Origin: a virus | DNA length: 29,609 nucleotides | Reading direction: 5' to 3' (one strand) | IMG/VR virus record: IMGVR_UViG_3300036944_000176 | Location: 1 to 29,609 of that record | Part shown: in pieces, positions 9,607 through 12,800 of the stretch | How the letters are laid out: every line of letters begins with the position of its first letter | Position numbering within the stretch: the first letter of the stretch is position 1 | Program-made: the position numbers and the translations under genes | Notes under the pieces: model-generated | The model's database searches: none | The model's input: the letters and a program-made list of their open reading frames with translations, nothing else | What the model was told of the DNA's origin: nothing

Positions 9607-10628
9607 TGAGCAGTAACTATCTACCTACAGACTACCAATCCTTTATTGCAACCTCACGCTATGCCCGCTGGTTGCAGGAACAAGGTCGCCGTGAGAACTG
9701 GGGTGAAACTGTCTCTCGCTACATGGAGAACGTAGTAAATAAACTTCTTGCAAGCATTGATCACGTAGGTGGTGAGGCTATTGCTATTGAACAGGCTATC
9801 CTCAGCCTAGACATTATGCCTTCCATGCGGGCTGTTATGACTGCTGGCCCTGCGCTAGATCGTGATAACACTGCGGGGTACAACTGTTCGTATCTGCCTG
9901 TAGATGATCCTAAAGCTTTTGACGAAGCTATGTTCATCCTGCTATGTGGTACTGGTGTAGGCTTCTCTGTAGAACGTCAGTTCATCAGCAAGCTACCAGA
10001 AGTACCAGAGAGTATGTTCCAGTCCGAAACTACTGTTGTTGTTAAGGATAGCAAAGAGGGTTGGGCCAAGGCACTGCGTCAGGTTATCGCACTGCTGTAC
10101 TCTGGTGAAATCCCTAAGTGGGATGTATCTCTGGTTCGTCCTGCTGGTGCTAAGTTGAAGACCTTTGGTGGCCGTGCATCAGGCCCAGCGCCTCTGGTCG
10201 ATCTGTTCCAGTTTGTTATTAGTAAGTTCAAGGAAGCCAAGGGACGTAAGCTATCGTCTCTCGAATGCCACGATATTATGTGTAAGATTGGTGAAGTGGT
10301 TGTAGTTGGTGGTGTTCGTCGTAGTGCTATGATTTCTCTGTCTAACTTGTCAGATGATCGTATGCGTTATGCTAAGTCTGGTAACTGGTGGGAGAATAAC
10401 CCTCAGCGTGGTCTGGCTAACAACTCTGTGAGCTACACCGAGAAGCCAGATGCTACTAGCTTCATGCGTGAGTGGGTTGCTCTGATGGAGTCTGGTTCGG
10501 GTGAACGGGGCATCTTCAATCGTCAGGCATCCAAGAAGCAGGCAGCAAAGAATGGTCGCCGCAAGACTGACTATGAGTTTGGCACTAACCCATGCTCAGA
10601 GATTATCCTGCGTCCCTACCAGTTCTGT
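9606..10628 (+). CDS. nrdJ: Class II ribonucleotide reductase NrdJ, exon 1
   Basis: First 341 codons of an adenosylcobalamin-dependent, monomeric ribonucleotide reductase, which makes deoxyribonucleotides without oxygen or a small subunit. Key residues by alignment from memory to the Lactobacillus leichmannii enzyme: C94 (C119), N328-P-C330-S-E332 (N406, C408 thiyl-radical cysteine, E410) and C341 (C419). The spacing C330 to C341 equals that of C408 to C419. The exon ends with the C341 codon TGT at 10626-10628. If the RNA is not spliced, a TAA follows at once. Joined to exon 2 the protein is 639 residues, against 739 in L. leichmannii. Start ATG 9606 overlaps the previous stop (TAATG). Confidence 0.93.
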
Positions 10629-11393
10629 TAAGAAGATAGCAGAAGTAAAACAAGGTGAATTGCTGGGAAGCCTAAGTGCATGACATATGGTAATCAGCAG
10701 CCAAGCCCATCAGGGATGATGTGGAAGGTTCAACGACTAGGACGAGAGACTAGAACAGTCAATAATGTCCATACACCTAAGTAGGTGGAAGTGCCTTGCC
10801 CCTAGTAACAATAGGGTGATGATATAGTCTGATCTGTAGGGAAACTTACAGGAGTGTTGACAAAAGTTTCTTTTCTGGTATAACTATCAAAGTTACAGAA
10901 TTGGAGACTACATGATAAGGAATAGACAAGGTTATCTGGTTTCGGAGTTGAGTAGGGAGTGTACCAAATGTGGTTCAATCTTTCAGAATAAGAGCAAGAC
11001 GGTTACACTATGCGGCCCTTGTAACTCTACTAGAGTTAAAGAACAAAGCCCAGAAGTACGGATGTACAGAAGAGCTAAGTCAAGAGCAGCACAAAGTGGT
11101 CTTGAGTTTGACCTCAACAAAGAAGACATTAAGATACCTACCCATTGTCCTGTGCTAGGGATACCACTAAGTACTCATCAAGGTACATCAGGTGGAAGAG
11201 ATAACTCTCCAGCACTAGATAGGGTGGACAATGGCAAAGGTTACATTAAGGGTAACGTACTTGTCATAAGCCACCTAGCTAATATGATGAAGAGTTCTGC
11301 TAACAAAGAACAACTAATCAAGTTTAGTGAATGGGTACAGAAAACTTACGTCAACACCGCTGGGGAAGTTACGAAACCCAGTGAACATAAATG
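10629..11393 (+). ncRNA. Group I self-splicing intron in nrdJ
   Basis: A 765-nt intron interrupts the NrdJ frame. P1 can form between exon end TTCTGT (10623-10628) and GCAGAA (10639-10644), with the canonical U-G wobble at the splice site. The R element GGTTCAACGACTAGG (10728-10742) and S element GATATAGTC (10821-10829) are those of T4 td-type introns; GACTA (10735-10739) pairs with TAGTC (10825-10829) as P7. A P-like GGTGAATTGCTGGGAA (10654-10669) pairs in part with ATCAGCAGCC (10693-10702). The intron ends in G11393 (omega G). A short P10 is possible between AGAT (10634-10637) and ATCT (11395-11398). Exact joining gives QFC-NLTEV, the conserved reductase sequence. The likely subgroup is IA. 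Confidence 0.9.
10857..10884 (+). promoter_or_regulatory. Intron-internal promoter for the homing endonuclease
   Basis: A perfect -35 TTGACA (10857-10862), a 16-base spacer and a -10 TATAAC (10879-10884) with an upstream TGG (extended -10). It lies after the catalytic core (S element ends 10829) and 28 bases before the endonuclease ATG at 10912. It is the best promoter match seen in the window and would allow the endonuclease to be made without depending on nrdJ transcription. Confidence 0.7.
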
Positions 11394-11394
11394 A
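10912..11394 (+). CDS. HNH homing endonuclease encoded in the nrdJ intron
   Basis: A 160-residue HNH endonuclease that would cut intron-less nrdJ and spread the intron. An N-terminal zinc knuckle has C17-x2-C20 and C34-x2-C37. A basic helix (RRAKSRAAQSGLEF) follows, then the HNH region with CPVLG at 79-83, S99-P-A-L-D103-R-V-D106-N, GYIKGN at 110-115 and N124. GGAG at 10903-10906 serves ATG 10912, and a strong promoter lies upstream. The stop codon TGA (11392-11394) consists of the last two intron bases and the first base of exon 2, so its reading frame ends exactly across the 3' splice junction. Confidence 0.9.
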   Translation: MIRNRQGYLVSELSRECTKCGSIFQNKSKTVTLCGPCNSTRVKEQSPEVRMYRRAKSRAAQSGLEFDLNKEDIKIPTHCPVLGIPLSTHQGTSGGRDNSPALDRVDNGKGYIKGNVLVISHLANMMKSSANKEQLIKFSEWVQKTYVNTAGEVTKPSEHK

Positions 11395-12302: not shown

Positions 12303-12336
12303 ACCTAGGACAGGATAAGCTTTTGTCCTAGGTTTC
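12303..12336 (+). terminator. Hairpin terminator after nrdJ
   Basis: A perfect 10-bp stem, ACCTAGGACA (12303-12312) with TGTCCTAGGT (12324-12333), has an 11-base loop and is followed by TTC. The U tract is short, so it may act as a partial terminator or as a 3'-end stabiliser. It separates the nrdJ transcript from the next gene. Confidence 0.6.
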
Positions 12337-12357: not shown

Positions 12358-12582
12358 ATGACCAGAGGCGAATACCGAGTAGGGATTAACTTCAACCCTG
12401 CTAATGATGATATGGTTGCTATAATCAAGCGGGCTGCGGCTAACCTAATTGACCTGATTGACCATATTGATGATCAAGCTAACCTAGGAGAAATCATCCG
12501 ACTCAAAGCTTTGGCACAGACCGAGGTTGAGAGTGCTGCTATGTGGGCGGTGAAGGCAGCTACAAAACCTAGCTGGGGATAA
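12358..12582 (+). CDS. Candidate Acb2/Tad1-like hairpin protein (possible anti-CBASS)
   Basis: A 74-residue protein beginning MTRGEYRVGINFNPANDD. Two helices dominate: residues 17-40 (MVAIIKRAAANLIDLIDHID) and 45-69, the second containing RLKALAQTEVESAAMWAVKA. The pattern R-x-K-A-L-A-Q-T-x2-E-x-A-x-M-W-A-V-K-A-x-T recalls small phage proteins annotated with the Acb2/Tad1 hairpin domain (T4 Vs.4 relatives), which bind and sequester cyclic-nucleotide immune signals. This is recognition from memory, not a search; the protein could be an unrelated helical hairpin. AAAGG precedes the ATG. It stands alone between a terminator and a structured RNA region. Confidence 0.5.
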   Translation: MTRGEYRVGINFNPANDDMVAIIKRAAANLIDLIDHIDDQANLGEIIRLKALAQTEVESAAMWAVKAATKPSWG

Positions 12583-12598
12583 GGATAAGTGTCTGACC

Positions 12599-12705
12599 TA
12601 GGCTTCGGCCTAAACTGTGGATGTTACACAGTGAGTGGGATTGATCAACCACAAGGGAATTAGGATAAGCTGGCAAGGCTTAGGGTTATAGCGCCCCTCG
12701 TCCTA
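12599..12705 (+). ncRNA. Candidate structured RNA or leader upstream of glutaredoxin
   Basis: A non-coding 107-base run filled with consecutive stems. TAGGC-TTCG-GCCTA (12599-12612) is a UUCG tetraloop hairpin. CTGTG/CACAG (12615-12631) and GTGG/CCAC (12635-12652) follow. A three-way junction is then closed by TAGGA (12661-12665) and TCCTA (12701-12705), enclosing AAGC/GCTT (12667-12681) and AGGG/CCCT (12682-12698) end to end. It does not fit a tRNA (no T-loop) or a riboswitch I know. It may be a leader of the glutaredoxin-phoH operon or a separate small RNA. Confidence 0.4.
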
Positions 12706-12711
12706 CCTAAG

Positions 12712-12730
12712 TGTTCCCGAACAGGAACAT
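12712..12730. promoter_or_regulatory. Palindrome copy 1, possible operator
   Basis: TGTTCCCGAACAGGAACAT. Arms TGTTCC and GGAACA are a perfect 6-bp inverted repeat around CGAACA. It is 17/19 identical to a second copy that starts 49 bases downstream. Paired palindromes before a ribosome site suggest repressor or activator binding, but as RNA each can also fold into a hairpin. Confidence 0.5.
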
Positions 12731-12760
12731 ATTGCCAAAATATCTTACCAACTGCTTATT

Positions 12761-12779
12761 TGTTCCCGAACGGGAATAT
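12761..12779. promoter_or_regulatory. Palindrome copy 2, possible operator
   Basis: TGTTCCCGAACGGGAATAT. Arms TTCCCG and CGGGAA form a 6-bp inverted repeat around AA. The two differences from copy 1 keep or improve pairing (A to G makes a C-G pair; C to T leaves a G-U pair). It ends 13 bases before AAGGAG of the glutaredoxin gene. Confidence 0.5.
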
Positions 12780-12800
12780 TCGATCTTACAAGGAGTTAAC

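Follow-up and report, generated by a model that had tools for sequence, protein, structure and literature searches.

An optional gene for a predicted Acb2/Tad1-type cyclic-nucleotide sponge in a marine roseophage-like genome

The DNA analysed here (referred to as the window) is a virus record of 29.6 kb. Among isolated phages it is closest to Roseobacter phages CRP-2, CRP-4 and CRP-5 and to Lentibacter phage ICBM2, with DNA identities of 70-74%. CRP-5 and ICBM2 are classed within the Zobellviridae, Cobavirinae, and the window is a marine Cobavirinae-like roseophage. On its plus strand, an open reading frame (ORF) running from an ATG at 12358 to a stop ending at 12582, with AAAGGGG as its ribosome-binding site, encodes a protein of 74 amino acids. 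The genes around this ORF are nrdJ, encoding an adenosylcobalamin ribonucleotide reductase, and those for glutaredoxin and PhoH, the ORF itself lying between nrdJ and glutaredoxin. A reading made from the sequence alone had described it as a small helical-hairpin protein with an ALAQT-x2-E-x-AAMWAVKA helix, resembling the Acb2/Tad1 sponges; the ORF is present as claimed, with the helix ALAQT-EVES-AAMWAVKA. Taking together the PF24729 profile, AlphaFold2, HHalign and dN/dS, we annotate the product as an Acb2/Tad1-hairpin-domain protein and predicted cyclic-nucleotide sponge, and refer to the ORF as the sponge gene.

Between nrdJ and the sponge gene lies a strong 13-bp hairpin (12303-12333, plus strand; -18 kcal/mol, z -4.3), which the sequence-only reading had taken for a terminator ahead of the gene. 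The very stable structure is there; however, it is non-canonical as a terminator, with no T-run, and does not figure in the list produced by a terminator scan. Nor does it travel with the gene, as it also occurs in two relatives devoid of the sponge gene (L234 and L236) and is missing from one that carries it (L001). For want of a T-run, the terminator assignment was considered and left unproven. Further upstream, a group I intron (RF00028, 80.7 bits; 10619-11394, plus strand) splits nrdJ after ...ILRPYQFC and holds a 160-aa homing endonuclease-like ORF with no Pfam match. In the closer relatives L001 and L002 nrdJ is uninterrupted, and in L233, L234, L235 and L236 an inserted HNH-like reading frame precedes the last nrdJ codons, an apparent second intron or insertion site in this gene.

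Downstream, a non-coding stretch (12583-12800, plus strand) separates the sponge gene from glutaredoxin. It contains a hairpin-rich conserved RNA candidate at about 12591-12713 (plus strand), which recurs in 15 viral contigs outside the window and adjoins a tRNA gene in L245, L247 and L248. Neither Rfam, searched with the non-coding stretch, nor the isolate phages, searched for the candidate, gave a credible match; a HOTAIRM1 match from Rfam was rejected as chance. A model of the RNA likewise found nothing in 198 genomes of the assumed host family, an outcome that carries no evidential weight. Covariation lends support, albeit thin, both sides changing in 2 of the 23 predicted pairs, and the window copy folded as a single sequence is no stabler than its shuffles (z -0.21). 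This RNA candidate may be a more novel feature than the sponge gene. Just before glutaredoxin stand two near-identical palindromes, TGTTCCCGAACAGGAACA (12712-12729) and TGTTCCCGAACGGGAATA (12761-12778), 49 bases apart and absent from both L001 and L002, which are possible operator sites.

The nearest relative of the ORF product, encoded by L001, shows 84% identity across 70 residues. The two coding sequences differ by 22 changes at third codon positions and 15 at the first two, and their dN/dS is about 0.11 (dN 0.088, dS 0.79), so that the ORF does encode a protein, one maintained by purifying selection. Scanning viral contigs uncovered at least 381 stretches coding for relatives of the 74-aa protein. 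A chance or degenerate ORF, which its shortness might suggest, as might PADLOC, where the protein had no match (NCBIfam likewise returned nothing useful), is refuted by these relatives, by the low dN/dS and by a significant family match to PF24729, and we give it practically no credence.

The distribution of the gene among related phages sets it apart from the core genome. Its place in L001 and L002 is exactly that of the window. In CRP-5, ICBM2 and CRP-2, nrdJ is followed directly by glutaredoxin, and PF24729 matched nothing in these genomes (0/3). The gene is also absent from nine relatives (L229-L236 and L247), in which nrdJ lies directly upstream of the conserved non-coding stretch. Clean empty sites could be recognised, L234 and L236 retaining the hairpin and flanks of the window cassette and L232 those of the L001 cassette. 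Given these empty sites and the absences among relatives, the sponge gene is an optional cassette and not a core gene, and such clean presence and absence among close roseophages makes its benefit testable. Further relatives of the protein occur in genomes of Paracoccus, Defluviimonas, Pseudoruegeria, Camelimonas and Endozoicomonas.

Family membership was established by profile comparison. Against Pfam the protein gave a single match, to PF24729 ("Acb2/Tad1, hairpin domain"; E 2.3e-11), at 44.1 bits against a curated cut-off of 27 bits, and all 40 aligned relatives (40/40) matched this family and no other. The same profile detects the Acb2 proteins of phages PaP2 and T4 in their own genomes. 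In HHalign comparisons, with alignments built from individual loci (PaP2 type, n = 42 sequences; T4 type, n = 34), the window subfamily scored 95.9% with the PaP2 Acb2 type (E 5.8e-9) and 88.5% with the T4 Acb2 (Vs.4) type (E 2.7e-6), while reversed or column-shuffled controls reached 1.9% at most. As PaP2 and T4 Acb2 scored 97.8% with one another, the window subfamily is a bit farther from either type than these are mutually. Direct matches to PDB sequences had E values of 0.17-0.97, none significant singly: phmmer reached T4 Vs.4 at no better than E 0.97, and a profile search placed Acb2 homolog 43, T4 Vs.4 and Tad1 among weak matches, and PHROG 717, of no known function, matched weakly. By its profile match the 74-aa protein is a member of the named, curated Acb2/Tad1 family PF24729, and the likeness first proposed from the sequence alone is thus borne out, both by the Pfam score and by HHalign with clean controls. 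Related proteins already stand in public tables under the label "Acb2/Tad1 hairpin domain-containing".

The predicted fold agrees with this assignment. The AlphaFold2 model, built on an alignment of 40 sequences, has a pLDDT of 94.6 and is all-helical (helices 3-8, 18-35 and 43-68; no strand), forming a helical hairpin with Acb2 topology: the Acb2 protomer likewise consists of a short N-terminal helix followed by a long antiparallel pair (PMC12043709). In BFVD, the nearest predicted viral structures are named Acb2/Tad1 hairpin domain proteins. Compared with the solved Acb2 structure 8h2j, the model gave Z 5.4 and an rmsd of 4.4 over 62 aligned residues with 19% identity, a score tied by unrelated helical hairpins. 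Since the fold by itself thus fails to single out Acb2, it is the sequence profiles that carry the assignment. A plain Foldseek search of the PDB with the model returned chance-level matches only, with no Acb2 listed, and was not counted against Acb2 because a hairpin this small matches many folds.

For three codons of the gene, HHalign brings the encoded residues into register with the ligand sites of known Acb2 proteins. F12 (12391-12393, plus strand) aligns with the ligand-site tyrosine, Y11 in PaP2 and Y8 in T4, the motif NPA being placed over KPH of T4 Acb2 with F12 on Y8, and the same loop leading to Y11 of PaP2. K24 (12427-12429, plus strand) aligns with K26 of PaP2 Acb2, which we take to be the pocket lysine, and R48 (12499-12501, plus strand) supplies an arginine at the position of PaP2 R67, presumably the arginine of the cyclic-trinucleotide site. 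Across 67 distinct relatives, gathered by short exact query peptides, one of which was enough per relative, so that conservation is biased upward, F12, R48 and W63 are invariant and position 24 is a lysine in 66, with arginine in one. The alignment of the invariant R48 with R67 favours cyclic-trinucleotide binding. These positions also bear on whether the hairpin domain could have been reused outside anti-defence, for instance in phage regulation or as an assembly factor. Hairpins of this small helical kind are commonplace and indistinguishable by structural comparison alone, and the PHROG matches come without a known function; nonetheless, ligand-site positions that are (nearly) invariant among the relatives, and a gene that is an optional cassette, argue against such reuse, which we regard as very unlikely.

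The putative dinucleotide site differs from that of characterised Acb2 proteins. F12 takes the place of the tyrosine, and K24 is kept at a spacing 3 residues shorter. In T4 Acb2, Y8 is required to bind the dinucleotide, while F82 makes a stacking contact with the ligand (PMC12657218). The N-terminal segment of known Acb2 proteins (MDNQHKKIKGYRDLS / IEDIKGYKPHT) is replaced in the window subfamily by a highly conserved signature, (M)TKGEYRVGIxFNPS; the KGY(R/K) segment of the PaP2/T4 subgroup is absent from the 74-aa protein. On the strength of this replacement, the TKGEYRVGIxFNPS proteins are a distinct PF24729 subfamily outside the PaP2/T4 subgroup. Together, the altered N-terminal segment and the shortened aromatic-lysine spacing suggest a changed dinucleotide pocket, and the TKGEYRVGIxFNPS segment may be where the ligand range differs from that of known Acb2.

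Overall, the 74-aa protein is most probably a hexameric sponge of the Acb2 type that takes up the cyclic di- or trinucleotides of CBASS, a reading that draws on analogy with Acb2. By that analogy, the helical-hairpin protein would assemble as a hexamer, which in the infected cell would tightly bind, without cleaving, the cyclic dinucleotide or trinucleotide products of CBASS-type enzymes; with the signal so sequestered, death-inducing effectors would stay off, and the phage would thereby counter the defence. As regards targets, a survey of 198 genomes from the bacterial family to which Pseudoruegeria (L096) belongs, the family of the host as inferred from related isolates, detected SMODS, the CBASS nucleotidyltransferase domain, in 16, ThsB-TIR in 18 and PF24729 itself in 10. 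The assumed host family does offer targets for such a sponge. The earlier suggestion of CBASS pressure on the host population is made plausible by these frequencies, and no more than that, for a host assigned through the related isolates. Panoptes detects sponges, which may thus cost a phage dearly (PMC12657218); such a cost fits an optional sponge gene, as a compatibility and not as a proof.

The near-equal frequencies of ThsB-TIR and SMODS (18 vs 16 of 198) also bear on whether the protein is a sponge for some other signal, its new N-terminal pocket suiting a gcADPR-type (Thoeris) molecule or another nucleotide instead of those of CBASS. The strong conservation of the subfamily-specific N-terminus and the Tad1 chains among the weak PDB matches point the same way. 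However, the N-terminal beta-sheet part with which Tad1 forms its gcADPR pocket (PMC12043709) is missing from the all-helical 74-aa protein, and F12, K24 and R48 retain Acb2-aligned positions, so that we consider a different signal rather improbable and retain the Acb2-like CBASS sponge as the preferred reading. Also unlikely is the idea that the TKGEYRVGIxFNPS subfamily might be a separate sponge class, with an N-terminal pocket rebuilt for a signal beyond the known Acb2 range; if true, this would hint at an uncharacterised nucleotide alarm in marine alphaproteobacteria and related hosts. Our literature search found no experimental report on this subfamily. To the Acb2/Tad1 sponges it adds a branch that is abundant and highly conserved, occurring in phages that include those of aquatic alphaproteobacteria, and binding assays on its members could reveal nucleotide alarm signals used by their hosts.

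Among known systems, Acb2 of Pseudomonas phage PaP2/PaMx33 (PDB 8H2J, 8H2X) has PF24729 and the helix plan in common with the 74-aa protein, along with the K26/R67 pair aligned with K24/R48 and a T ... A ... P pattern in helix 2. The two are only about 21% identical, and PaP2 Acb2 begins with MDNQHKKIKGYRDLS instead of MTKGEYRVGIxFNPS and has a tyrosine at the ligand-site position held here by F12, with 3 more residues between this aromatic and the lysine, and a longer loop. T4 Acb2 (Vs.4, PDB 7uq2) shares an A-x-T-x4-A-x-MWA-x-(R/K)-A helix and aligns its Y8 with F12, whereas its ligand-stacking F82 corresponds to T69, and it has no arginine at the position of R48. The Pfam domain family also includes the C-terminal helical hairpin of Tad1 (Thoeris anti-defence 1; PDB 7uav, 8smd), which is preceded by an N-terminal antiparallel beta-sheet that has no counterpart here. 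Similarity extends to PF24729-type proteins from Flavobacterium phages (FCV-1, elemo group) and from uncultured Caudovirales, which come from other hosts and are annotated as hypothetical or by domain name only; at about 42-56% identity, they have in common with the 74-aa protein the motifs FNPS...IK..SAELI and T-x-x-E-x-A-x-MW-x-VKA.
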